Part shown: positions 8,756 to 60,979 of the stretch, piece by piece
How positions within the stretch are numbered: the first letter of the stretch is position 1
How the letters are laid out: each line of letters opens with the position of its first letter
Source of the DNA: Nitrospinia bacterium
GTDB taxonomy: Bacteria > Nitrospinota > Nitrospinia > Nitrospinales > JAJDAT01
Reading direction: 5' to 3'
Assembly (NCBI GenBank): GCA_029261715.1
Contig: JAJDAT010000031.1
Coordinates: 1-64,000, forward strand
DNA length: 64,000 bases
Notes under the pieces: generated by a model
Databases searched by the model: none
What the model was told of the DNA's origin: nothing
What the model saw: only the letters and a program-made list of their open reading frames with translations
Translations under genes and position numbers: made by a program

Positions 8756-10688
8756 AATCATTAATGGTTACAAACCACCTTTATGGATGGTTTTATTTTT
8801 CCTTTCGATTGTGTCGGTTTTGGGTTTTTCGGAAAGCTTAAAAAACGATATTGTTTCCCTGGACGACCCAGAAATTTTATCCCAATCCATGATTCGCGCT
8901 TTTTCCTGGGAAAATTGGCGCGAAATGGTAACTAGTTTTAAAACGGGGAATTGGATTCCTATCGTATGGATTTCTTTTGCGATTGATTACAAACTGTTTG
9001 GACTGGCGCCTTGGGGATATCACTTAACTAGCGTTTTAATACACGGGTTTAATATATGTCTCGTTTTTTTCCTTTTTTTCAACATAACTCAACCTCTTTA
9101 TGGAGGAAATAGAGCTTATTGGGGCGGCGCCATTACCGCGTTATTATTTGGACTTCATCCTCTAAGAGTCGAATCAGTTGTTTGGATTGCGGAACGAAAG
9201 GATTTGCTTTGCGCATTTTTTTATTTGCTTGTTTTGACTCTCTATGTCAAGTGGATGGAAGTCGATAAAAGATTCCTTTCAAAAAAAAAATATTTTATTT
9301 TGTTAGTCTTTTTTGCGCTAAGTTTGATGTCCAAACCCATGGCTGTTTCACTCCCGATTATTCTCATCCTCTTGGACATTTATCCCTTAAACAAAATTAA
9401 GGACATTTCTGGTTTTTTGCTCTCTATCAGGGAAAAAATACTTTTCTTTGTGTTAAGTCTTATTATTGGATTGACGACTATACAAGCTCAAAAACAAGTG
9501 GGAGCAATGGAGCAAGTTTATAGAAATGGTTTAAGCGATCGCTTTATGAATTCAATTCATAATGTTTTTTTTTATGTTCAAAAAACATTTTGGCCCCAAT
9601 CTTTAACTCCTTTATATCCTTTTCAAGAACCTTGGAGTCCGTTTAGCGGATGGTTTATTATTTCTATTATTTTTTTTTCTGGAGCAACATTAATTTGCAT
9701 CAAAGCTTGGAAAAATGGAAATAAGGTTTTAAGCGTTGCATGGCTAGCATATTTAATAATTTTAATGCCAGTTTCTGGTTTTATTCAGGTTGGAAGCGCC
9801 GCTGCCGCTGATCGTTATTCTTATTTACCTACCATACCCATTTTTTTTCTCGCGGTTGGTTCGATTGTCGCCGTTTCCTCATATAGAGATCGATATATTT
9901 TAATAGGTAGTTTATTTTGTCTGATTTTCATTTTTACTTTTTATCTGACTCAAAAACAGATCGAAGTTTGGAAAAACTCTGAAAGTTTCTGGGCAAGAAC
10001 AGTTAAGTTTTATCCGAGGTCTATTCCACTAGCTCGTCGAAATTATGCTCGGGCTTTATTAGAAAATGGAAAATTTGAAAAAGCCGAGAATCAGCTGGAA
10101 ATAGCTTTAAAAGTTTCTCCAAATAATCCAGATATTTTGTCAGATTTAGGATATTTAAATATTTATTTAAAGAAGATATCTAATGCAGAAATTTATTTAA
10201 AGACCGCTCTAAAAGTTAATCCGTTTAACTTAGAAGTATTGATCAATATGGGAGTTTTAGAAAAAAATAAAAAACGATTAGGACCTGCGCAAATATATTT
10301 TCGTCGCGCTTTACAAATTAATAAGTACCGTTTTGACGTTTATAATTATTTAGGCGAAATTTTCACTGAATTGGGAAAATACAAGGATGCGGAATCTAAT
10401 TTTAAGAAAGCGATAGCCCTCAATTCGATTGCTCCAGATATCCATTTAAATCTTGGAAAACTTTATTTTAATTTTAAAAAATACAAAGATGCAGAAAGAG
10501 AAACCTTAATAGCTTTAAAAGAAGATCCAGTTTACCTTGAAGCGAGAATTAATTTAGGGGATATCTATCTGAAAATGAAATTAATCGATCAAGCAAAAGA
10601 AGAATATCAAAAGGCTTTAAAAATTGAGCCGACCTCTAAAAGAGTTTTAGAGCGATTATCAAGTTTAGTTTTGACTTTAAAAAGCTGA
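8739..10688 (+). CDS. TMTC-like GT-C membrane protein with C-terminal TPR array (paralogue)
   Basis: Protein of 649 residues with the layout of the preceding gene: SLDDPEIL in the first loop (about residue 41), HPLRVESVVWIAERKDLL (about 139-156), AAADRYSYLP (about 355) and six or so TPR units from about 430 to the end. The paralogues are clearly diverged, so the duplication is old. The start at 8739 overlaps the previous gene by 17 bases and is preceded by a weak AAAAGGGA. Retention of two active-looking copies suggests different acceptor or donor specificity. Confidence 0.8.
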   Translation: MSQKTKIINGYKPPLWMVLFFLSIVSVLGFSESLKNDIVSLDDPEILSQSMIRAFSWENWREMVTSFKTGNWIPIVWISFAIDYKLFGLAPWGYHLTSVLIHGFNICLVFFLFFNITQPLYGGNRAYWGGAITALLFGLHPLRVESVVWIAERKDLLCAFFYLLVLTLYVKWMEVDKRFLSKKKYFILLVFFALSLMSKPMAVSLPIILILLDIYPLNKIKDISGFLLSIREKILFFVLSLIIGLTTIQAQKQVGAMEQVYRNGLSDRFMNSIHNVFFYVQKTFWPQSLTPLYPFQEPWSPFSGWFIISIIFFSGATLICIKAWKNGNKVLSVAWLAYLIILMPVSGFIQVGSAAAADRYSYLPTIPIFFLAVGSIVAVSSYRDRYILIGSLFCLIFIFTFYLTQKQIEVWKNSESFWARTVKFYPRSIPLARRNYARALLENGKFEKAENQLEIALKVSPNNPDILSDLGYLNIYLKKISNAEIYLKTALKVNPFNLEVLINMGVLEKNKKRLGPAQIYFRRALQINKYRFDVYNYLGEIFTELGKYKDAESNFKKAIALNSIAPDIHLNLGKLYFNFKKYKDAERETLIALKEDPVYLEARINLGDIYLKMKLIDQAKEEYQKALKIEPTSKRVLERLSSLVLTLKS

Positions 10689-33136: not shown

Positions 33137-33542
33137 AATATAAATTTCCTATTAATTTCAAAACTTTGATGATTCTCATGTTTTTTATGATGTTTTCCAA
33201 ATACTAGATGCCGCCTCTATAATTTTTATCTTAATATTACTTTAAAACTGAACATTTTTCTTATATGTTAAATCTGTTACAAGCCATAGTTGCTGGAGAC
33301 GGTTAATTACAAAAAAATAATGTTAAATGGATGGTAGTTCGTTTTTGAAATTAGAAGCCTTGAAACTCGAATTTTTAATTGTCCAAGATAATTAAAGGTC
33401 GAAAAAATATTAATTTGTTGTACAATGCCTGGCTTGATAATTTGAGCGCTGCTAAGTCCACTAGCTATAGTATTTTTGAGGGATAATTTTTTGGTATCAG
33501 TATTCCCAAAATTTACTTTTTTATAAGTTTTAGAGAAAGTTT
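33137..33542. other. intergenic region upstream of tRNA-Leu
   Basis: About 400 AT-rich chromosomal bases between the SGNH gene and tRNA-Leu. No independent gene is seen. The minus strand of 33307-33542 is open, but only as the accidental continuation of the recombinase frame from the element. A tRNA promoter must lie here; several TATAAT-like hexamers exist and none stands out. Confidence 0.5.
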
Positions 33543-35154
33543 GCCGAAGTGGTGAAACTGGTAGACGCGCTGGACTCAAAATCCAGTGAGGGCAACCTCG
33601 TGTCGGTTCGACTCCGACCTTCGGCACCAATTCGGACTCACCCCCCTTCAGGTCCTCTAGAAGCCTGAAGGGGAGCGAGTTTGCAGCGGTTCGAAACCCA
33701 CCGTTTCGGTAGTAAGGTAATTTGGTGCAAAACACCAACCGCAGCACAATTCTTTTGTCCTCTAGTCTGTCGGAAGCCCATAATTTACAAGGGTTTGCGA
33801 GGAATCCAAAAGCGGTTCGAAAAGTTTCACCAAAGTCTTTGAGTGGACGACCACAATTTTCGATTTTTTCCTTCAATCCGGTCTTTTCCTCTTCCAGTTT
33901 TTTGATCTGATTTTCATAGGTCTTAAGCAAAACCGGACTATCAGCCTCAACAATCCGTTCTAAAAACTGTACAATTTTGTGCTCAGTTTTAGAGATTTCA
34001 GCTTTCAAAGACCGTCCCTGCAATTTTGATTTTTGCAACTGATCTTCCCAGAACGCTTTAAGCAACTCAAATGCCATAGAAAACAGTTTTTGTGAAGGGG
34101 AGAGGTTTTCCAACAATTCCTGAAATTCTCCCTCTATTTGCTCTTTGCGGACGGATTTCCGGTAATCCGGGCACTCTTTACTTCTGCAAAGATAGTAAGG
34201 GTATCTTTCCTTACGCCCTTTGGACCAGCACGCTGTCATGGGATGATCGCAATTACCGCAGGTCACAAAGCCCCGGAGCGGAAAATCCGCATTAATATCC
34301 TTTCTCACAGGAGCGCGGGCCTGTTCCTTATCGCGGTTCTGGACTTTTTGCCAGGTTTCGAAGCTGATAAGAGGTTCGTGCTTTCCGGGTTGCAGACGAA
34401 TATTCCATTTGGGAACGTCAATATATCCAGCATAAAGGACCCGGTCCAGGATTTCCCTGATCCGCTCGAACTGAACCTCGCCTTTTCTGTCTTTGGGATA
34501 TATGGAGCAGTTTTCTAAAAACCGTTTGATCTCGCTATGCGTTTCGAAACGGCCCGAAGCATAGCCTTCAAAAACCTCCTGAATAACGGAGGCCATAGGT
34601 TCGTCACGAACAAGCACTTTTCCGGAATGACCGGAAACGCCTTTTTCGTAGCGATAGCCCGGAGGTGCATTAAAGGGCCAATAACCGTTCAATATCCGGC
34701 CCCGCATGCGGTTTTTTGTTTGCTCTGCGTTTTTTTGACGATGATGTTGCGCCACGCTGGCGAGAAGATTTTCTACCAATTGGCTGTCGGAATCCTCGCC
34801 GAATTCGATAGAAGGCGATTCCAGCTTTCCGCCTGTTTCGCCGATGGCCAGCCGGAGGTCGACATGGGCTTTCATACCCCGCGCCAGACGGCTGATATCG
34901 TCGATAATAACAGCGTATTCCCCCTCTTTACTTTTTCTAAGAAAAGAGAGCATATCCTGCATGCCGGGGCGGTCGATCAAAGAGCCGGATACGCCTTTAT
35001 CCTGGAAAACCTGGATGATATTGTAGCCCTTGTTTTCGGCGAACTGACGGCAACGTACCTCTTGAGAGCCGAGGCCGTCTCCTTCTTCCACCTGCGTAAC
35101 GCTGGAAACGCGGCAGTAAATGACAGCTTTTTGGTTTATGGCATCATCGGGCAT
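33307..35154 (-). CDS. large serine recombinase (integrase) with host-derived C-terminal tail
   Basis: Order of domains: an N-terminal resolvase domain with the catalytic Ser in YCRVSS and Arg in DDISRLARG; a recombinase domain (about 170-290); a zinc ribbon with CGNC and CRSKEC (about 300-340); a coiled coil (about 370-430); and a family-typical end FRTAANSLPFRLL. Residues from about 510 (VPKVGVEPTRGCPHW...) are the antisense translation of tRNA-Leu and upstream chromosome, reaching 615. Joined to the other element end, the frame would instead end after 33 different codons at 61043 (542 residues). The start follows AAAGGAAG. It integrates and, with a directionality factor, excises the element. 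Confidence 0.9.
   Translation of the reverse strand: MPDDAINQKAVIYCRVSSVTQVEEGDGLGSQEVRCRQFAENKGYNIIQVFQDKGVSGSLIDRPGMQDMLSFLRKSKEGEYAVIIDDISRLARGMKAHVDLRLAIGETGGKLESPSIEFGEDSDSQLVENLLASVAQHHRQKNAEQTKNRMRGRILNGYWPFNAPPGYRYEKGVSGHSGKVLVRDEPMASVIQEVFEGYASGRFETHSEIKRFLENCSIYPKDRKGEVQFERIREILDRVLYAGYIDVPKWNIRLQPGKHEPLISFETWQKVQNRDKEQARAPVRKDINADFPLRGFVTCGNCDHPMTACWSKGRKERYPYYLCRSKECPDYRKSVRKEQIEGEFQELLENLSPSQKLFSMAFELLKAFWEDQLQKSKLQGRSLKAEISKTEHKIVQFLERIVEADSPVLLKTYENQIKKLEEEKTGLKEKIENCGRPLKDFGETFRTAFGFLANPCKLWASDRLEDKRIVLRLVFCTKLPYYRNGGFRTAANSLPFRLLEDLKGGESELVPKVGVEPTRGCPHWILSPARLPVSPLRQTFSKTYKKVNFGNTDTKKLSLKNTIASGLSSAQIIKPGIVQQINIFSTFNYLGQLKIRVSRLLISKTNYHPFNIIFL
33543..33629 (+). tRNA. tRNA-Leu (anticodon CAA)
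   Basis: Folds as a class II tRNA. The acceptor stem is GCCGAAG/CTTCGGC, and the anticodon arm CTGGA-CTCAAAA-TCCAG gives anticodon CAA. A long variable arm (TGAGGGCAACCTCGTG) is followed by the T-arm GTCGG-TTCGACT-CCGAC, discriminator A and an encoded CCA. The last bases lie at the left junction of the integrated element, so part of the CCA end may be supplied by the element. Confidence 0.97.
33624..33627. other. attL core (proposed)
   Basis: GCAC at the tRNA 3' end, shared with 61141-61144. Upstream of it the tRNA sequence CGACCTTCGGCAC matches the right-end CGCCTATCCGCAC at 9 of 13 positions, as expected for related attB and attP half-sites. Joining the ends here restores a longer native recombinase frame. 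The exact crossover dinucleotide is unproven. Confidence 0.55.
33643..33673. repeat. 10-bp perfect inverted repeat beside the attachment site
   Basis: CCCCTTCAGG (33643-33652) and CCTGAAGGGG (33664-33673) with an 11-base spacer, sixteen bases inside the proposed left end and within the 3' coding part of the recombinase. No T-tract follows, so it is not a typical terminator. It could be part of the attP recognition region or an mRNA hairpin in the recombinase transcript. Confidence 0.6.
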
Positions 35155-44691: not shown

Positions 44692-46701
44692 ATGAAACAA
44701 TCAGACCAACGAAGTAAACCTTCCTCCACCCTGGCCACTCTATGGAGTGGCCTTTTTTTCTACGCCACATATAGAACATGGTTCCTGTATGGAACACCTT
44801 ATAGCTGGGTGCCGGTTACTTTTGCCGTTATAGCTGGTGTGAATTCTCTGACTGCTTTAAGCGGTTTGATTTCTTTTCTTCACAATATCTTCCTTTTAAT
44901 GGAAGCCTTTGGGAAAACGGTATCGAAGGGTAGCAGCGCCTGGGCCACTTCAGCCGAAATCAGAAGAGCCGGACTTTATAAAACCGACGGGCTTTTCTTT
45001 GGATGCGATCAAACAGGACATCCGCTTTTTTATTCGGCAGAAAGTCATGGTCTTACCCTGGCTGCTTCAGGATATGGAAAAACGCAATGTTTTACATTAC
45101 CGGCGCTCTGTAAACATGAAGGATCAGCAATTGTCATGGACTTCAAAGGGGTTCTGGCAGTACAGGTAAAACATTTATTAGAAAAGAAGTACGGAAAAAA
45201 AGTTTACATTTTAAACCCCGCAGGTTTGTACGAAGATATATTAGGTCCTTCCGATCATTTAAATCCCATAGAGTATTTAATTGATGATTGGAAAGATGAA
45301 TCTAAACATCCTTTTTTAATTCCTCATACAAAAGGATTTGCTTTCCAATTATCACCCGACCCAAAAGTAATAGGGGACAACCAATATTTTATAAATGCTT
45401 CAAGACGCTTGGTTGTCTTTGGAATGCTTTTTTTAGTTACGCATGATGACTGTGAAAATGCCAATCTATGTGAAGTATTACGTTTACTCCAAAATGAAGA
45501 CCGCTTGTTGGATGCGCTATCCATTGCCTCCGCCTCGGAATTGTTAAATGGAGAGCTTGTGGATATGGCGTCAGACTTTTTGAAAAAGTTTGAGGTGTCT
45601 GATCGGCGGCAGATTGAAAGCATCAGGGAAGGAGCAATCCAGGCCGTAGAGCATTATTCTCCCAGTTCTATGCTATCAAAAATTTCCAGAAAAAGTTCGT
45701 TTCGTTTTAAAGACCTTAAAAAAGAAAATGCTGTTGTATTTGTAATTACTGATGCCGCCAGTGGAAAAGCAATGAATGCCTGGCAAGGGGAGGTGGGATT
45801 TAGCTCTATTACTGAATTAACCATGTGTCGAAATAATAAGCCGGTGTTGTATCTATTTGACGAGGCTACTAATTTCAAAATTGAAAATTTACCAAATTCT
45901 TTAACAACCATGCGTGAATACGGGTTAAGAGCCCATTTCGTGATTCAGGAACTAAGCGAATGGAGCCGGGTCTATGGTAAGGAAGCATTGGACACACTTC
46001 TTTCCCAAACTGAAATAAAACAAATTTTCGGAATTCAGAGCCAGAAAACGGCTGAATTAGTGAGCCAGATGTTGGGTGAGGAGACTTTGAAATTGCCGAA
46101 CTATAATCTGGGACATGACCATAATGACAAGGTTCAAAAGTCTTTGAATGAAAGCGTTCGTAGACTACTTACCCCAGACGAAGTAAGACGTTTCACGGAT
46201 TCTATTTTGTTTGTTAAGAATATGAAACCAATCAGAGCCAAATTAATAGGAGTGCACGAAGTTAAGCCTTGGTCCCGTTGGCTAAAAGTGAATCCTTTAC
46301 ACGGGAAAAAACTTAAAGGTAAAACCCATGTTTGGCTCAGTTATTTCTGGCGTTTTATCACGGGTCGTCCGAGTGTTTCAAAATATTTAAGAATTAAGCC
46401 CCAAGCAGGAAAAGGAAAACCCTTAGTCTATTCTCTGCAAATGGGACTGGCTTTATTTAGAGGAGGTCTGGCTTTGGTTCCGTTGGTTGCCATTATCATT
46501 ACGTTTTCGTTGCCAAAGACACCTCACGTTTTGACCTATTACGAGAGATACGGATCTTATTCCGCGTGTACTTATTTTGGAAAGAACGGAAAAGTAGAAT
46601 TGCCTTCGGCCCATGATTGCTCGGTTATTACCTTCATTGGCGAGGAAAGTCAGTTCGACTTGTCGTCATATATGCGTTCGATTTCATCGATTTTTAATTG
46701 A
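44692..46701 (+). CDS. type IV coupling protein, VirD4/TraG family
   Basis: Protein of 669 residues. Two N-terminal membrane helices (about 15-65) precede the ATPase domain. Walker A is AASGYGKTQCFTLPAL (about 122-137), followed by VMDFKGVLAVQV, and Walker B lies in KPVLYLFDEATNF (about 382-394). It would carry the relaxase-DNA complex to a secretion channel. Unusually, after the ATPase core a third hydrophobic segment (about 585-610) and an extracytoplasmic tail of about 60 residues follow. GAGG precedes the ATG. The element has no channel genes, so it likely docks with a helper's system. Confidence 0.9.
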   Translation: MKQSDQRSKPSSTLATLWSGLFFYATYRTWFLYGTPYSWVPVTFAVIAGVNSLTALSGLISFLHNIFLLMEAFGKTVSKGSSAWATSAEIRRAGLYKTDGLFFGCDQTGHPLFYSAESHGLTLAASGYGKTQCFTLPALCKHEGSAIVMDFKGVLAVQVKHLLEKKYGKKVYILNPAGLYEDILGPSDHLNPIEYLIDDWKDESKHPFLIPHTKGFAFQLSPDPKVIGDNQYFINASRRLVVFGMLFLVTHDDCENANLCEVLRLLQNEDRLLDALSIASASELLNGELVDMASDFLKKFEVSDRRQIESIREGAIQAVEHYSPSSMLSKISRKSSFRFKDLKKENAVVFVITDAASGKAMNAWQGEVGFSSITELTMCRNNKPVLYLFDEATNFKIENLPNSLTTMREYGLRAHFVIQELSEWSRVYGKEALDTLLSQTEIKQIFGIQSQKTAELVSQMLGEETLKLPNYNLGHDHNDKVQKSLNESVRRLLTPDEVRRFTDSILFVKNMKPIRAKLIGVHEVKPWSRWLKVNPLHGKKLKGKTHVWLSYFWRFITGRPSVSKYLRIKPQAGKGKPLVYSLQMGLALFRGGLALVPLVAIIITFSLPKTPHVLTYYERYGSYSACTYFGKNGKVELPSAHDCSVITFIGEESQFDLSSYMRSISSIFN

Positions 46702-53272: not shown

Positions 53273-53645
53273 TAGAAATTCCTATAAAAATAGTCTAAAT
53301 AAATATTTTTAAATTTGTCTCTTGATATTGGTTTTAAGTTATTAACGTGGAAGTATTTTTTCCAAAAACTCCAAACATTATTAACTTTAATTAGTATTTT
53401 TCCTTGAGCATTCAACCTATTTCTTTAAGTGAAAAATTTATCGACATAATACCAAAATATAGACGCTTTTGCATTGGGTTTTGGGTAATGGTTGAATTCT
53501 TTCGATACCTGCCATTGAAATGAATTACACAACAATTTTCTTATTGGAGTCAGTAGTGTGTCAAATAGGGTTCACATGACACATGAATGAACCGGAAAAC
53601 CGATCATTTTAATTTATGAAAAAAGAAATGCGTTAAGGATGATCG
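53273..53645. other. AT-rich intergenic stretch
   Basis: Between the lipoprotein gene and the hairpin array. No gene, RNA fold or repeat is recognised. The lipoprotein promoter presumably lies near 53280-53340. Confidence 0.4.
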
Positions 53646-54000
53646 CAAGATGTGCGCTGTATTACATTCAGCGCGATCTTGACAAGGGAGACGCTGCCGC
53701 TCTCCCGTTGTATCCCTCTAGGCTTTGACGCATTCAGGCATTGAACCTTTCTGCGCCAGTAAAACGTTTCGCCGTTTCATCACGAGCCGGAGGAGCGTTC
53801 CTGCTCCCCCCGCGCCCCCATGACCAACGGGAGATTTCGCTCTCCCTTTGGAAGCCCTTCGACCGGATGTCTCGTCACCCGGCACACGAGCAAAGGGAGA
53901 CTTCCGTTCTCCCTTGTGCAATCCCATCCACCAACCCTGCGCGGATTGGATGCCGCCAACGCTTCCGCCGTTGGATCACGACCAGCGTTTCGACTGCTGG
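53646..54000. other. GC-rich array of seven hairpins (candidate structured RNA or DNA)
   Basis: Successive stem-loops at 53646-53681, 53683-53710, 53792-53807, 53824-53851, 53893-53915, 53956-53974 and 53982-54000. Three of them share the stem GGGAGA/TCTCCC and most have short loops with TTCG or TTCC. Short open frames cross the region on both strands but look like artefacts of the inverted repeats. It abruptly interrupts AT-rich DNA and lies against the 3' end of the nuclease/methyltransferase cassette. The function is unknown. Confidence 0.55.
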
Positions 54001-54095
54001 ACTTTGTGGCTAGCTTTTAAATTGCCATCGCAAAAAATAAAAATGGCGTGATGATTTCTGGAAAAAGCTATTTTACCCATATTTGATAGCTATTA

Positions 54096-54797
54096 TTATG
54101 GGTTAAAAAAAGTTAAAAAAATATGGGCAATTGAAATATTTGGGAAATACGATTCAGAGTTTACTGTTCGTTTATGTTCTGTATCAAAGTTTGCGACTGA
54201 TGGAAAAACAGCTGAAGGATAACGAATAAGTTTACCTTTCAAGCAGGGAACTATTTTTAATTCTTTTGTGATTTTTTCTTGAGTTATATAATTTTTTAGC
54301 TTGTTTAGACATACCTCTTTATCTCCAACAATCATGGCCACCATTGCGGCTATTGGTTCGTTTTCACCATAACGTCTATCGACAAATCGTTGCATTCCAT
54401 CTTGTCTTACATAAGCTCGTATACTTTTTGAAGCGTTACAGAGTTTTTTAAATTCGAAGATCAATACTAATCTCATTTTCCCAGAATTTGAAAAATAAGT
54501 AATATCTTTCCTAGTCCTTTCGATTATTTCACCAGTTTTTTTGTCGATTTTAATTTGAGGATTTTCATTTATCCAAAATCCGGTTAATCTACCTTTTGAT
54601 TTCGAAAAGTTGTCGATGTAATAATGTAATCTTTCGGTAAGATAGTTCTCTCTTTTAGAAAGGTCGAAAAACTGTGGCTGAGAGCTAGCCATTTCTTGCC
54701 ACGTTTGAAATAAAAACTCCGCTGCCCGGCGTGCCTCATCAAATGGAAATACCTTTTTCCAAACATCGGGTTTGGAAGAGGTTAATTGCTCACTCAA
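54096..54797 (-). CDS. PD-(D/E)xK-like nuclease partner of the methyltransferase
   Basis: Protein of 233 residues. A candidate nuclease core reads KDITYFSN (Asp about 99) then RLVLIFEFKKL (Glu-x-Lys about 114-116), the D...ExK pattern of restriction endonuclease folds; an upstream Glu in the helix ENYLTERLHYYID would complete it. Its start overlaps the methyltransferase stop by four bases (ATGA), so expression is coupled. Probably the cleavage or accessory subunit of a restriction-modification or related defence system. The fold assignment rests on motif spacing only. Confidence 0.6.
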   Translation of the reverse strand: MSEQLTSSKPDVWKKVFPFDEARRAAEFLFQTWQEMASSQPQFFDLSKRENYLTERLHYYIDNFSKSKGRLTGFWINENPQIKIDKKTGEIIERTRKDITYFSNSGKMRLVLIFEFKKLCNASKSIRAYVRQDGMQRFVDRRYGENEPIAAMVAMIVGDKEVCLNKLKNYITQEKITKELKIVPCLKGKLIRYPSAVFPSVANFDTEHKRTVNSESYFPNISIAHIFLTFFNP

Positions 54798-57700
54798 TAT
54801 GAATTTACCTCCTGAATGAAGCGAACAATTCGTTCTGCATCTTGATAAGCTTCACCTCTTAACCAAAGACGACGTATAAGTGGTTTTATAAGATATAGAG
54901 AATCTTGATGCCTAATAACTGTATCCGCAATAAGGTAGAGATTATCTTGTGTTTTTAGAGGCAGAATATCTTCTTTTCTAAGTTTGTTAAGAACAGCTAT
55001 AACAGCACTATCCGTTATTTTTCGGTTCCACAGGTCGGAGGAGTTTCCATGTTGTGTTGTCTCCAATTTGATAATCCCTAACCTTCCAACATCTTGATCA
55101 GAGCCTCTTAGAAATGAAATTTTAAAAGAGCCTTCTCCATTCATTGCATCCCTCCATTCATTAAGCTCATTCAAAAACGTATCGGCGTAATCGGAAATTA
55201 TTTTTTTGGAGACAGGGGCCTGTAAAGGTGTTTGCAAATCGGAATATGAAGATGGTTGTATGCTTGGAAGAATGTATTTTATAACTTCCTTAATACGGGC
55301 ACGTTCGCTTTTTTTTAGTTCAAAATAATCCCAAATTTTTTCCTCTGCTTCTATTCTCCAACGCTCATATAAATATTTTTGTTCTAAAACATGTTCCTTC
55401 TCTAGGTTTTTGGTAAATAGTGCAATTTCCGAAATTATTTCTTTCGCTTTTTTAGGATTAGAATGATTATTCGGAGCAAAGAAGGGAAAATTTTTTATAT
55501 CGTTTAGACTTACGCGTTCACGTTCAAAAACAACTTGATAGGCTGTCATTATGAGGAAATAACGGGCTAAGTCAGAATGAAGATAAACTGATATAAAACG
55601 GAGTAAATCATTGTCTATTTTATGAGCTACTATCGCAGCAATGCTACTTGAAAATGAAAATGGTTTAGAACTGTATGCGGCCATTATTTCACGATTTGAA
55701 TTAAGGCCATCGGTAAAGACAATTCGTGCCTCATTAAAAGCTTCTGGAAATGATTTTGGTAACCTGGCTATAGTTTCGATTTCATCTGGAAAAGCTCGAA
55801 GAACTTGGTGGTCTAACAATGGTCCATTAGTTTCAAAGTGTTTGGCATTTAGATAAGGCCATTGATGCAGTTCCTCTGTAGAGACTGGAGATGGTTGCGA
55901 TACGTCTTTCTTATGAAAACCCTTGGCAATACTCCATCCCTCAGTTTTTTTTATAAAATCTCCTAAAGTCCCTGATATCTTAAGACGGGTAATTGTTCCA
56001 AGATCATGTTGTGTTCCCCAAAAGAGTGTAGTCAAAAGTGAATTATTACTCGAAAGAGAAGAAGCTGGAATAACATGACGGTCAGTTCCATGTAGAGCTA
56101 ATCGTCCGAAGGATAAACTTACATCTGCTTTTGGTACCCTGTATTCAATCGTTTGTTGAATACTATTATCATTTTTTAAAGCACGAGGTTTTGCAACTAA
56201 AATTAGAGTTGGTTGCTTTGCATCATCAAAAAGTAATTTTCTTATATCTCCAAAATTGATTATGGTTTCAATTTGATAGTGTCTTAGCAAAAGCTTTATG
56301 AATTTTTGACTTGTATGGGCCGCAAGCAGACTTACTGGAAGAATAAAACAAACTATCCCATCCTTTTTAAGACTATTTAAGGACCTTAACAAAAATGCTG
56401 CGGAAACTTGTCTTCTTGGAATTTTATAGCCTTTTTGCTTTGCCCAGATGTCTGAGGAAAGTTCGGAGTTGCTAGGAGGCTCTACCCAAGGTGGGTTACA
56501 AAGGAAAAGGGAAAACTGTTGAGAATTTACAAGTGGATTTTGCTTTGAAAAGAGATCGCCTTCTTTTTTTCCTACTCTGATATTTCCACCGAGAAGATGG
56601 GGCAAACGAGCTTTACCTGATTTATAAAGTTCTGCAATATCAGATGGCTGAAGATTTTCAAGTACTGATAAATATAGGCTGAATGCGGTGACACGACATG
56701 CAGACTCATTTATATCGGAGCCATAAATATTCTGTTTAAGTAGACGAGTTCGTTCTGAGAACGATAATTGACGATTTCTTTCGGATTCTGCATGAGCCAA
56801 CATCCTACGAAAAGCGGTTGTCAGCAAAATTCCGGAACCACAAGCACCATCGTAGATTTTTTCTTTTAGAATATTCTTTGATCCCAGAAAAGCTTGGTTG
56901 ACGACTAGGTTAGCAAGATGCCTCGGTGTGTAATAGGCACCTATTATACGTTTTTCATCTGACAAAAAAGATTCATAAATTCCAGAAATAAGTTCAACGG
57001 GAATAAATCTAAAATCATAATTCCATAAATCCTGCTGCCCGGTTTCAAGGTTTACACGGCTTAAAAAATCATCTAATTGCTGTAGAGCATTGTTTGATAA
57101 TTGAGCCCAAATATCGGCTCTTTCATTTGGTGCATCTAACAAATCTCCGTTAAAATCGTTTTTTAACCGTTCGAGTAAACGGATAATACCGTTTTTATCT
57201 TTACTCTTTATAAGATCATGTAATAAGCCAACTTTCCTTTTCTCTCTGTAAGAATTTCCAACTATTTGCCTATGCTCCAGATAAGAAATGAACATTATTT
57301 GGGCCATAAGAAATTGAGCTTTTAAACGTGACAACCCAAATTTCTCAATATTTTTCACAACGACAAAAAGATTTCTAAGAAGTTGGCGGTCCACTCTGTT
57401 TTCAGGTTGGAACCAATCAATATGGCGGGAAAAAATCTCACCTGATTGAAAGTCTGCTTTAGAGTAGGGGCTAAATAAATGAGCTTCAGAATATTGAATA
57501 GTCTTGGGGGTTACATCTCGTTGACTAACAGGAAGAGCTGAAGCTTTTGATGCATCGATTGTAAGAACCACAGAAATTAAATTCTGATTCCATATTTTTT
57601 GTCGAATTTCTTCTAAATCCAGTCGAGTACTTTTATGCTCTCCTTCAAAGAAGCAGACAGTAGGAACTCCTTCAATATCAAAGACAGCATGAGCTTGAAT

Positions 57701-57841
57701 TTCTCCGTCAGTCCTTAAAAGCTCTTTAAGCTCCCTATGGTAAGGGTGAGCTATAGGAAGATCTTGGTTGGCTAAATGCAAATTACTTGAGGAATTACTA
57801 TATCCCCAAGTTTTAAGCCATTTTTTTAGATTAGTTTTCAT
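54794..57841 (-). CDS. N6-adenine DNA methyltransferase (Eco57I/type IIG-like)
   Basis: Protein of 1015 residues. The N-terminal 130 residues contain GVPTVCFFEGEHKS and may be a degenerate nuclease-like region. A helical region follows, then YYTPRHLANLVV and methyltransferase motif I DGACGSGILL (about 330-339), GSDINESACRVTAFSLYLS, and catalytic motif IV NPPW (about 450-453). The last 400 residues should hold the target-recognition domain and a helical end. It methylates adenine in double-stranded DNA. Size and order resemble Eco57I-type or PglX-like enzymes. AT-rich cargo next to ardA; paired with the 233-residue gene. Confidence 0.85.
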   Translation of the reverse strand: MKTNLKKWLKTWGYSNSSSNLHLANQDLPIAHPYHRELKELLRTDGEIQAHAVFDIEGVPTVCFFEGEHKSTRLDLEEIRQKIWNQNLISVVLTIDASKASALPVSQRDVTPKTIQYSEAHLFSPYSKADFQSGEIFSRHIDWFQPENRVDRQLLRNLFVVVKNIEKFGLSRLKAQFLMAQIMFISYLEHRQIVGNSYREKRKVGLLHDLIKSKDKNGIIRLLERLKNDFNGDLLDAPNERADIWAQLSNNALQQLDDFLSRVNLETGQQDLWNYDFRFIPVELISGIYESFLSDEKRIIGAYYTPRHLANLVVNQAFLGSKNILKEKIYDGACGSGILLTTAFRRMLAHAESERNRQLSFSERTRLLKQNIYGSDINESACRVTAFSLYLSVLENLQPSDIAELYKSGKARLPHLLGGNIRVGKKEGDLFSKQNPLVNSQQFSLFLCNPPWVEPPSNSELSSDIWAKQKGYKIPRRQVSAAFLLRSLNSLKKDGIVCFILPVSLLAAHTSQKFIKLLLRHYQIETIINFGDIRKLLFDDAKQPTLILVAKPRALKNDNSIQQTIEYRVPKADVSLSFGRLALHGTDRHVIPASSLSSNNSLLTTLFWGTQHDLGTITRLKISGTLGDFIKKTEGWSIAKGFHKKDVSQPSPVSTEELHQWPYLNAKHFETNGPLLDHQVLRAFPDEIETIARLPKSFPEAFNEARIVFTDGLNSNREIMAAYSSKPFSFSSSIAAIVAHKIDNDLLRFISVYLHSDLARYFLIMTAYQVVFERERVSLNDIKNFPFFAPNNHSNPKKAKEIISEIALFTKNLEKEHVLEQKYLYERWRIEAEEKIWDYFELKKSERARIKEVIKYILPSIQPSSYSDLQTPLQAPVSKKIISDYADTFLNELNEWRDAMNGEGSFKISFLRGSDQDVGRLGIIKLETTQHGNSSDLWNRKITDSAVIAVLNKLRKEDILPLKTQDNLYLIADTVIRHQDSLYLIKPLIRRLWLRGEAYQDAERIVRFIQEVNSY

Positions 57842-58147: not shown

Positions 58148-58654
58148 ATGTCCAGTTTTTATGCGCAGCCTTATGATATTTCTGCAACAGGATTTTATTT
58201 TGAAATCTTGGAAGAGTACGAAGAAAAATCTAGTAAATTAGTTAATGACGCAGGATTTCCCGTAGAAGAATTTGAAATTCAGTTTATCGATGGGGAGGAT
58301 ATTGATTGTAAATTATTTGATGCGCTGGGTTTAAGTCAGTGTAATATCGGCCCCCTTATTGATGCGGCGGAAAGCTGGGGCGAGTGGCAGAAAATAATCG
58401 TCATTCTTGCCGTAGGGGAATGCGGCTATGATTTTGACCCCGAAGACGGTAACCCGGATGATTTTGACATTGATATTTATGAAATGGATTCCATGAAGGA
58501 ATTAGCAGAGCATTTTGTTGATGAAGGACTGTTTGGAGAAATTCCTGAAAGTCTCATTCACTATATTGATTATGATGCGATAGCCCGCGATTTAAGTACA
58601 GAATATAGCGAGGCAAGAATTACCGGAAGAAGGTTTATCTATCGATACGTTTGA
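58148..58654 (+). CDS. ardA: antirestriction protein ArdA
   Basis: Protein of 168 residues, the usual length, strongly acidic. The start (FYAQPYDISATGFYF) and the characteristic C-terminal part (ELAEHFVDEGLFGEIPESLIHYIDYDAIARDL ... ITGRRFIYRYV) match ArdA. It mimics B-form DNA and blocks type I restriction enzymes, protecting incoming element DNA. AAAGGAGAGG precedes the ATG. It is typically expressed early from the leading region of conjugative DNA, consistent with its place near the mobilisation genes. Confidence 0.93.
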   Translation: MSSFYAQPYDISATGFYFEILEEYEEKSSKLVNDAGFPVEEFEIQFIDGEDIDCKLFDALGLSQCNIGPLIDAAESWGEWQKIIVILAVGECGYDFDPEDGNPDDFDIDIYEMDSMKELAEHFVDEGLFGEIPESLIHYIDYDAIARDLSTEYSEARITGRRFIYRYV

Positions 58655-58708: not shown

Positions 58709-58975
58709 TTAATTATTTTTAATCCAGTCAAATGTACCTTTTAAGGGCTTGAATGCCTCTATTTGGTCAATGTTGGTTCTCACCACTATTAAGGTATCGT
58801 CTTTATCTATAAAATTTTTAAAATGCTCTAAAAGATCTTCAGTAGTCTCATTAAGATTACAAAGCCAGAATGATCTAGCTGCCCTATGGCAACCAAGTCT
58901 CTTAAGCTCGTCCGTCAATTTTGTGTAATCTTTTTCTTCATTGTTCAAATCGTAGGTAATAACAAAAATAGACAA
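58709..58975 (-). CDS. orphan Cas2/VapD-like small protein
   Basis: Protein of 88 residues with a ferredoxin-like pattern: strand MSIFVITYDLNNEEKDYTKLTDELKRLG (Asp in YDL as in Cas2), then AARSFWLCNLNETTEDLLEHFKNFI and DTLIVVRTNIDQ. There is no cas1 or other cas gene and no CRISPR array in the window. Related stand-alone Cas2/VapD proteins are RNases or toxins. Its role on this element is unknown. It lies convergently after ardA. Confidence 0.65.
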   Translation of the reverse strand: MSIFVITYDLNNEEKDYTKLTDELKRLGCHRAARSFWLCNLNETTEDLLEHFKNFIDKDDTLIVVRTNIDQIEAFKPLKGTFDWIKNN

Positions 58976-59231: not shown

Positions 59232-60515
59232 TTAATAAAGCTCTTGCCCATGACCTTTTTCAAAAGCCTGGGTTAAAGCTTTCTCTTTTGGGGGAGGTGG
59301 AGTTCCGCCGATCTCGACATAATGCGCAATAGTTTCCCTCAATTCCAGCATTTGGTTTTGATAACGTTCTTTAAATTCGTTAAGTGATTTTTGAAGTCTC
59401 TGGCGTTCCTGGAGCTGGCGATTGATGAGATTTTGTTTTTCGTCACGATCGCGCAACTGACAGTTTTCTGTTTCCCGCTCGTTCTCGGCACGGATTTTTT
59501 TGTATTTTCCGGTAATGCGATACCAGATTCCTTTAAAGCCTCTTGGCAGTCTTTGGAAACGTTCAGTTTCTTCCTTTTTCCACCGCTCTTCCTGGCGTTC
59601 TTTCAAATTCTGTCTTTGTTTACGGTGATGGTTTCTGATCACCTGTTTCCGGCGTAACAGAGGTTCTTTTTCTTTCTGGGTTTGGTTTTTGACTTCCTGT
59701 ACGTAATTCTCAAGTTTTCCTGTCATGCGCCGGACCAGATCCACTTTGACCTCTGCCACAGAGGGTAGGTCTTTCGGATCGCCTAGACAGCTTTTTAACT
59801 CTTTGGGTTTTATATCCAGTTTGCGGCTCAGGGAAAATATCTCCCCGCGATAATCGACGGCGACAAAGCCGCGCCTGTCACCTTTTGCCAGGGTAAAACC
59901 TCTTTCTTTTAGTGCTTGCGCAAAAGCGTTTTTACTGTCTGATACGGCCCAGCATTCCCTGAATAACTCTATAAGTGCTTGGGGGTCTTCATTAAGGCGT
60001 TTAGCCTGTTGCCATTCTGAAAGGCTAAAATTGAGAGGATCACGCTTCTTACTATCCATCATGCCACGCGGCATTTGCCAGCCATATTTATAGTAAAGTT
60101 CTTTGGAAATCTCCCGCAGTTTTAATTTATAGAAAGAAAGACTAACGGCCTTCATTTCCTGCGTATTAATGCGCGACCAGACACAATGCGCGTGACGCCG
60201 CCCTTCCTTTTCATGAAAGACGATGGCGCGAGGTTGTCCTTCCAACCCCGTTTCTTTTTCAATTTTCGCAAGAGCGTTTTCAAAATATTCTACGGGAACG
60301 TTTTCCGTTTGCGGTGGGTTCAGGCTTACGGAAAACATAAATTGCCTGCACTTTGTTCCCTGACTTACGGCGTAAATCTCCTGTAAAGCATCATGAATAT
60401 TATCAGACATAAAACCGCTGATTTCATGAATTTCGACGTGTTCGTTTTCTTCAGTCTTCAGTAGGTGGCGTGCTAATTGTCTGGCACCGCCGCGCTGGCT
60501 TGCCTTAAGAATCAT
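59232..60515 (-). CDS. mobA: relaxase of the MobA/VirD2 (MOBP-like) type
   Basis: About 427 residues. The N-terminal 170 residues form the relaxase domain: KASQRGGARQLARHLL, then RAIVFHEKEGRRHAHCVWSRI with the metal-binding HxH near residue 110. The C-terminal half (about 230-400) is a long charged coiled coil. The protein nicks oriT and pilots the strand through the coupling protein. The start at 60515 (MILKAS) fits; the frame opens at 60533. It overlaps the upstream RHH gene by 11 bases. More GC-rich than the chromosome. Confidence 0.88.
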   Translation of the reverse strand: MILKASQRGGARQLARHLLKTEENEHVEIHEISGFMSDNIHDALQEIYAVSQGTKCRQFMFSVSLNPPQTENVPVEYFENALAKIEKETGLEGQPRAIVFHEKEGRRHAHCVWSRINTQEMKAVSLSFYKLKLREISKELYYKYGWQMPRGMMDSKKRDPLNFSLSEWQQAKRLNEDPQALIELFRECWAVSDSKNAFAQALKERGFTLAKGDRRGFVAVDYRGEIFSLSRKLDIKPKELKSCLGDPKDLPSVAEVKVDLVRRMTGKLENYVQEVKNQTQKEKEPLLRRKQVIRNHHRKQRQNLKERQEERWKKEETERFQRLPRGFKGIWYRITGKYKKIRAENERETENCQLRDRDEKQNLINRQLQERQRLQKSLNEFKERYQNQMLELRETIAHYVEIGGTPPPPKEKALTQAFEKGHGQELY

Positions 60516-60903
60516 GATTGTTTTTAACCGCAAGACCGAGGGCTTTAATCAAGGCATAACGAATCCATTTAATATCAAGGCAGCAATCGGCAATGGCTTT
60601 TTCCGTTTCCGGCGAAACGATGAGGGAGCCTGATTTAACGGAATTCGCGAGATGGTTTAAGTTTTCGGATATTTTCATGCGCCCCAACTCGCCTAAAATT
60701 TGTCCTAATTCCTTGTGGTCCTTAACAGGGAATTTTCCCCGTGTTTTTCTTTTCGAAGCATCCGGTCCAAACAAACTGGAACGGACATAATCGCTTAAGG
60801 ACATACCGGCGGCATTACGCTCAACCCGTGCATACTCTTCGAGTCTTAGGCGCAGAGTAATAACCCGTGTCCTGTTGTTTTGTTTTTCAATCATATTTTT
60901 CAT
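60505..60903 (-). CDS. MobC-like ribbon-helix-helix relaxosome accessory protein
   Basis: About 132 residues (start MKNMIEKQ; frame open to 60948). The N-terminal segment RTRVITLRLRLEEYARVERNAAGMSLSDYVRSSLFG is a ribbon-helix-helix DNA-binding domain as in MobC/TraJ-like accessory factors. The rest is helical (ELGQILGELGRMKISENLNHLANSVKSG). It would bind oriT and help the relaxase. First gene of the mob pair; the start codon is not certain. Confidence 0.82.
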   Translation of the reverse strand: MKNMIEKQNNRTRVITLRLRLEEYARVERNAAGMSLSDYVRSSLFGPDASKRKTRGKFPVKDHKELGQILGELGRMKISENLNHLANSVKSGSLIVSPETEKAIADCCLDIKWIRYALIKALGLAVKNNHDS

Positions 60904-60979
60904 TCTGTAAATAAAATACACCCTCATCCCCCGTATTTTGGGAAACAAAGGGCAAAAAAGCTTTAAATCTGAGGGAGTT
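60904..60979. promoter_or_regulatory. candidate oriT/mob promoter region
   Basis: Short region directly upstream of the mob genes, where MOBP oriT sites usually lie. It contains CCCC-GTATTTT-GGG (about 60939-60952), an imperfect inverted repeat, and no gene. This is placement by convention; no nic sequence is recognised with confidence. Confidence 0.3.

Follow-up and report, generated by a model that had tools for sequence, protein, structure and literature searches.

Nick sites at an oriT are usually single-stranded and lie beside the inverted repeat. In the leading region of F, the single-strand promoters Frpo/ssi are formed by the folded transferred strand, which is the template of the adjoining genes. 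For MOBP relaxases, PMC3772185 describes cutting at (C/T)ATCCTG^(C/T) beside an inverted repeat (^ marks the cut), and PMC7755788 gives, among others, the nick sites CTTG^CA, TGCTTG^CCA and RYGCTTG^C. Single-strand origins (sso) are orientation-specific hairpins in which structure counts more than sequence, and most rolling-circle plasmids carry them upstream of the nick; sso1 of ICEBs1 works in one orientation only and is located downstream of oriT (PMC4595007). According to a 2017 review, oriT and nick position have been identified for only some of the integrative mobilizable elements of Bacteroidetes and Firmicutes (PMC5704250).

Here we describe a row of hairpins in a contig of a Nitrospinia bacterium; the window, i.e. 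the whole stretch of DNA analysed, comprises 64,000 nucleotides. Judged from its sequence, the region is probably an extended oriT of an integrative mobilizable element, which would occupy about 33.3-61 kb of the window (Table 1). This reading is based on a conserved core with an attached array, on the fixed polarity of both to relaxase, coupling protein and recombinase genes, and on nick variants that track the relaxase tree.

Table 1. Features of the putative mobilizable element and its hairpin array in the window
Feature	Position	Strand	Remark
Large serine recombinase, presumed integrase	33307..35154	-	ORF runs through tRNA-Leu 33543-33629
T4SS coupling protein (PF02534)	44692..46701	+	
HP1: inverted repeat and nick-like arm CACATCTTG	53646..53681	-	predicted nick between 53646 and 53645
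HP1 upper stem (inverted repeat 5' of nick-like arm)	53654..53674	-	
HP2	53681..53715	-	closing stem ACAA/TTGT here, GCAA/TTGC in most relatives
HP2 linker GGAT	5' side of HP2	-	
Array hairpin with internal loop, GGCGCAG..CTGAATGCGTC	53727..53757	-	
Array hairpin, loop GCGAAA region	53760..53779	-	
Array hairpin	53786..53813	-	
Array hairpin, GGGAGA/TCTCCC stem	53824..53851	-	
Array hairpin	53862..53883	-	
Array hairpin, GGGAGA/TCTCCC stem	53893..53915	-	
Array hairpin CCAA..TTGG	53931..53949	-	
Array hairpin CCAACG..CGTTGG	53956..53974	-	
Last recognisable array hairpin CCAGC..GCTGG	53982..54000	-	cargo-side end of array
Cargo: 233-aa protein	54096..54797	-	ORF with 4-base overlap with type IIG gene
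Cargo: type IIG restriction enzyme-methyltransferase	54794..57841	-	
ArdA-like antirestriction protein (PF07275)	58148..58654	+	
MobA, relaxase (PF03432)	59232..60533	-	
NikA-like mobilization protein (PF21983)	60505..60948	-	called MobC here

Some further genes of the window were noted. A small resolvase (PF00239; 35692-36255, - strand) adjoins the large serine recombinase, and a similar one is present on the contig of the second array copy described below. A stand-alone Cas2-like protein (58709-58975, - strand; best PADLOC Cas2 match with E 1.7e-7) is encoded between ArdA and MobA, and no further cas gene was noticed beside it among the window ORFs read. The 233-aa protein, a possible partner of the type IIG enzyme, had no match in Pfam, PADLOC or NCBIfam. 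Searches of MobA against solved structures returned unrelated proteins (best E 0.013).

The GC content of positions 53640-54010 is 0.58, compared with 0.38 in the whole window and 0.31-0.33 in the 600-base flanks. This bears out the preliminary description, which had reported GC-rich hairpins within AT-rich DNA; the conserved end indeed begins at 53646 as given there, and the three GGGAGA/TCTCCC stems are present at 53686-53706, 53824-53851 and 53893-53915. By one scoring rule, positions 53632-54020 contain eight strong hairpins on the - strand and six on the + strand. For the - strand, 161 other segments of the same length had a mean of 1.73 hairpins (maximum 6), and 200 mononucleotide shuffles a mean of 2.31 (maximum 7). 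The - strand count is thus higher than both controls, whereas the + strand count merely equals the maximum found elsewhere. Fold z-scores were -3.5 (RNA) and -3.9 (DNA) for the + strand and -5.7 (RNA) and -4.4 (DNA) for the - strand, and for either strand 0 of 100 shuffles folded equally well. The hairpin row is real and above chance, and the better structure is on the - strand, which had been missed before.

A second copy of the array is located on another contig of the window's own genome, and six further genomes of its order carry relatives, five recognised in one search and G007 in a second. The first search matched 6 of 61 genomes, the window's own included, one of them (G046) by 26 bases only. 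Among 77 genomes of the class, the exact HP1 pattern was present in 6, again with the window's own included, and the reversed pattern in none. A scan of named genomes yielded at least 119 stretches. Among the matches listed (80 of at least 119), Alphaproteobacteria prevailed, accompanied by Nitrospirales, Planctomycetota, Verrucomicrobiales, Pseudomonas and other Gammaproteobacteria, Oxalobacteraceae, a cyanobacterium and Nitrospina; some of these labels may be wrong because many matched genomes are metagenome bins. A covariance model of the core reached E <= 1e-4 in 24 of 385 genomes of Alphaproteobacteria (27 at 0.01), a set that includes the centre genome and overlaps an earlier one (17 of 241). 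Among Gammaproteobacteria, 7 of 276 genomes, centre included, reached this level (12 at 0.01). Five contigs of viral collections carry array relatives, too. BLAST with the array gave no match in phages or E. coli genomes and few in plasmids; such searches yield little because the array sequence is poorly kept. At locus L095 (Nitrospina sp. MSP), the bases before HP1 are the same as in G003, which belongs to the window's order.

Across the copies, positions 53646-53715 (HP1 and HP2) are the best-kept part, and a modular array of varying length extends beyond them. Every copy has HP1 because the search required it; its pattern fixes much of this hairpin, and model R1 and most loci derive from that pattern. 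HP2 adjoins HP1 in nearly all copies read. Shared 10-mers fade 17 to 539 bases out (median 273, 92 copies), a measure that underestimates the extent of divergent arrays. Before HP1 conservation is weak, with TTAAG near -13 to -9 and none farther out. Arrays often break off mid-way with genes starting directly behind, and many copies have a short array only, suggesting that the array is not essential.

Several loci depart from this plan or add to it. In L071, an element with an IS110-family-like transposase (by eye) is located inside the array, about 68-1180 bases after HP1 and just behind HP2. L216 has two cores, 9055-9131 (+) and 10576-10652 (-), 1.44 kb apart with their HP1 ends facing, and L033, a viral-collection contig, has, 3.6 kb after HP1, a further array fragment that lacks HP1 and points the same way. 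GTANTAC palindromes resembling the HP1 loop were seen by eye about 60 bases before HP1 in L037, L041, L054, L087, L102 and others; they are perhaps sites of a DNA-binding protein. Behind the array, L045, L048, L049 and L108 share a second inverted-repeat block, AAAGGGTGGG..CTTTGATCC (by eye), which is followed or overlapped by an ArdA-like ORF, and in L050, L070 and L115 a box resembling a palindrome, TGTATCC..GGCTACA or GGATACACT, precedes the first gene (by eye).

To compare the two strands, hairpins with one internal mismatch were counted in 88 of 94 array records, leaving out L095 and L030 as repeats and four that were too short. The + strand had 108 A.C and 38 G.T mismatches, compared with 49/39, 51/48 and 50/44 in three shuffles and 47/45 and 43/52 in the flanks. 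As A.C on the + strand corresponds to G.T on the - strand, selection acts on the - strand. With RNA parameters the - strand was the more stable one in 79 of 88 arrays, with DNA parameters in 78; in the flank controls this applied to 44 of 72 and 41 of 79 (RNA parameters). The mismatch bias was 23 to 8 in 19 arrays found later by the model (- strand more stable in 15), 21 to 4 in 13 arrays preceding relaxase genes (13 of 13) and 17 to 9 in 12 arrays of the window's type (10 of 12), the latter two sets overlapping the 88 arrays. These strand tests fit RNA and single-stranded DNA alike and do not separate them.

Covariation was assessed in 63 cores, namely three plasmid loci and 60 of the 79 sequences that remained after L095, L030, L078 and L106 as well as seven cores failing the end pattern had been left out and identical ones merged. 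In 12 of 21 core pairs both sides had changed with pairing kept in some sequences, for example G-C 37 / A-U 25 in HP2 and U-A 33 / C-G 27 in HP1. Together with the strand bias of the mismatches, this supports the suspicion of the preliminary description that selection acts at the level of RNA or single-stranded DNA; the compensatory changes in relatives on which it had made this idea depend were found. Since HP1 is partly fixed by the pattern, 36 model-found genome cores were inspected as well (36 of 50 rows, without three opposite-strand echoes and 11 rows of otherwise known loci). The model was trained on pattern-found cores, and a bias thus remains in this set.

HP1 consists of an inverted repeat followed by GCACATCTTG^CG, an arm that is nearly invariant and resembles MOBP nick sites. 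In the 36 model-found cores the 3' arm reads C36 T35 T36 G36 and then C32/T4; the pairing arm varies more (A 33, A 31, G 34 of 36). CTTG^C or CTTG^T occurs in 35 of these cores, and L254 carries CATCCTG^C, the exact MOBP consensus. Deviating arms are found in two plasmids, which have CTGG for CTTG in an HP1-like hairpin not matched by model R1, and in L157, which has CGCG there. These deviations and the pairing of CTTG with CAAG inside HP1 count against the nick-site reading.

In the flanking sequence covered, 28 of 137 cores have a relaxase gene, and all but one of these genes are found on the array side (27 of 28; 25 of 26 without two repeats). On a tree of 23 relaxases, six nick variants need five changes, which is the minimum possible; shuffled labels needed 10.7 on average, and 0 of 200 shuffles were as low as five. 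This tree comprised L159, L160 and 21 of 24 relaxases (three fragments were left out), the set of 24 having been compiled without L058 and L109 (fragments) and L079 and L096 (repeats), and for L086 and L260, where the automatic pattern had picked a wrong position, the labels were assigned by hand from the sequences. Nick variants and relaxase side may match through common descent of whole elements. PF03432 and PF21983 were both detected in the window, L159 and L160, and the accessory gene of L017 remained below the cut-off. MOBP family models stay under their cut-offs for these relaxases, with E from 1.3e-4 (window) to 1e-22 (L160) for NF041893. PLSDB typing assigned L159 and L160 to MOBP and the pSymB relaxase to MOBQ. 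The low model scores and the MOBQ typing speak against the oriT reading, and membership of these relaxases in MOBP is tentative.

Other genes of the elements also keep their side. Among the 137 cores, the coupling protein is on the non-array side in 31 of 36 cases and the serine recombinase in 47 of 55; repeats were not removed from these counts, and the recombinases may include small resolvases. There are two arrangements of the mobilization genes. In the first (13 loci, including Sinorhizobium meliloti pSymB and the plasmids Labrenzia p1BIR and pPla133_1), the relaxase gene is + oriented and starts less than 1 kb behind the core. In these three, an annotated small gene precedes the relaxase; it is NikA-like in both of the small plasmids (19 and 45 kb) and below the cut-off in pSymB. 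The second arrangement, to which the window belongs, has the mob genes kilobases away from HP1 and facing the array, with cargo in between; this distance speaks against the oriT reading. In seven of eight window-type elements a short conserved coding end precedes the mob genes and therefore leaves little room for an oriT there; the amino-acid pattern used for it was devised after such sequences had been viewed. Genes on the array side include HsdM in 14 of 15 cases, 13 of them + oriented, and a second methylase family in all 10, nine of them + oriented; ArdA-like genes are + oriented on that side in 6 of 9. In the window the cargo beside the array is a - oriented type IIG enzyme gene. A search near 61 kb for an attachment site gave no convincing copy of the tRNA region, and the right end of the element is therefore not fixed.

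On this basis we propose that MobA and the NikA-like protein would nick the - strand after CACATCTTG (53646/53645) and that the nicked strand would leave 5' to 3' toward the coupling protein and integrase side. With the predicted nick at this position, the array, the cargo or restriction genes and the mob genes would enter last. Being 5' of the predicted nick on the transferred strand, the array would fold when single-stranded. If the region is an oriT, the array could start complementary-strand synthesis like a single-strand origin, one of the options named in the preliminary description. This is a tentative guess that we rate somewhat short of even, and it is made because sso share structure-kept, strand-specific hairpins 5' of the nick. 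Orientation-specific hairpins are indeed located near the predicted nick, on what we infer to be the displaced strand. The next-best roles of the array are helping the relaxase to end a round of transfer and binding of the relaxosome.

Covariation, wobble bias and the stronger RNA fold of the - strand are marks of a folded RNA as well, and loops such as GCGAAA look GNRA-like. Nevertheless, the structured non-coding RNA considered in the preliminary description is in our opinion unlikely; as we picture it, it would be large and transcribed from the - strand, with HP2-HP1 as its conserved 3' end and a function in trans. The 5' end of the structured strand is variable, and two plasmids leave just some 20-50 bases between the array and the start codon of mobC on the other strand, which disfavours a transcribed RNA, albeit a promoter inside mobC is possible. 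Moreover, a search of the window and ten related loci against Rfam matched tRNAs only, with weak chance-level matches at a relaxed threshold, a common promoter was not seen in the six full-length copies inspected, and constraint is stronger on the nick-like arm than on the arm pairing with it. Transcription of the opposite strand, with the array as the leader (5' UTR) of the following genes, is the least probable reading of all. Two plasmids have TTGACA/TTGACG some 60 bases ahead of HP1 (by eye), and + strand genes follow in many loci, both of which would suit a leader, yet even the 13 arrays preceding relaxase genes favour the - strand in wobble bias and stability. The leader was rejected, as the strand bias points to the other strand.

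A single-strand promoter resembling Frpo of F, in which the folded transferred - strand would drive early transcription of + strand genes, is no more probable than the RNA. The + strand genes next to the array have the structured strand as their template, and HsdM, the second methylase family and ArdA-like genes are mostly + oriented on the array side (13/15, 9/10 and 6/9). By the predicted nick, however, these genes would enter last rather than first, restriction genes are unlikely as early genes, and the first array-side gene of the window is on the - strand. A folded site for attC-like recombination, or a landing pad, at which defence cargo would come and go is in our view very improbable. 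It could explain why cargo begins directly behind arrays that end at arbitrary points, and the IS110-family element within the array of L071 would agree with it, but no genes were found between hairpins in the copies read. Array pieces past an insert were seen in just 3 of 92 loci, two of the inserts being insertion sequences; this possibility, raised in the preliminary description, was thus left unsupported and rejected.

The best reading of the region remains that of an unusual oriT, new as a variant within Rfam and the literature searched, and with a putative mechanism. Such hairpin arrays were not recognised in that literature, which covered few subscription journals and did not extend to bioRxiv. 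More doubtful is the wider picture of a widespread, unnamed oriT family in which a fast-evolving hairpin array on the transferred strand would prime the second strand by its structure, and in which mobilizable elements of unrelated bacteria would gather restriction systems on the late-entering side. If the oriT reading is right, HP1-HP2 would be a recognisable mark by which mobilizable defence islands are found in Alphaproteobacteria and beyond, the direction of transfer is predicted and elements are paired with their relaxases. An array whose structure is kept on one strand only would also make the conversion of the incoming single strand of such elements to double-stranded DNA testable.

Compared with known systems, the array shares with integron attC arrays that one strand folds and the sequence is variable; it differs in having no cassettes between the hairpins, and the recurring recombinase is a serine recombinase some kilobases away. 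Frpo/ssi of F differ in position, as the array here is on the side predicted to enter late. The MOBP oriT (RP4, VirD2, tfs4, pRJ6, Tn1549 and others) are similar in combining an inverted repeat with a YATCCTG^Y or CTTG^C nick sequence and a PF03432 relaxase with a NikA-like accessory gene. Here, in contrast, the nick-like sequence sits in the base of a longer hairpin, up to about 500 bases of hairpins are located on its 5' side, and the relaxases match MOBP family models only weakly. From rolling-circle sso the array, whose sso activity is putative, differs by many more and modular hairpins. The sso1 of ICEBs1 is placed downstream of oriT, unlike the array, which is 5' of the predicted nick; in this upstream position and in its orientation-specific, structured hairpins the array resembles the sso of rolling-circle plasmids.
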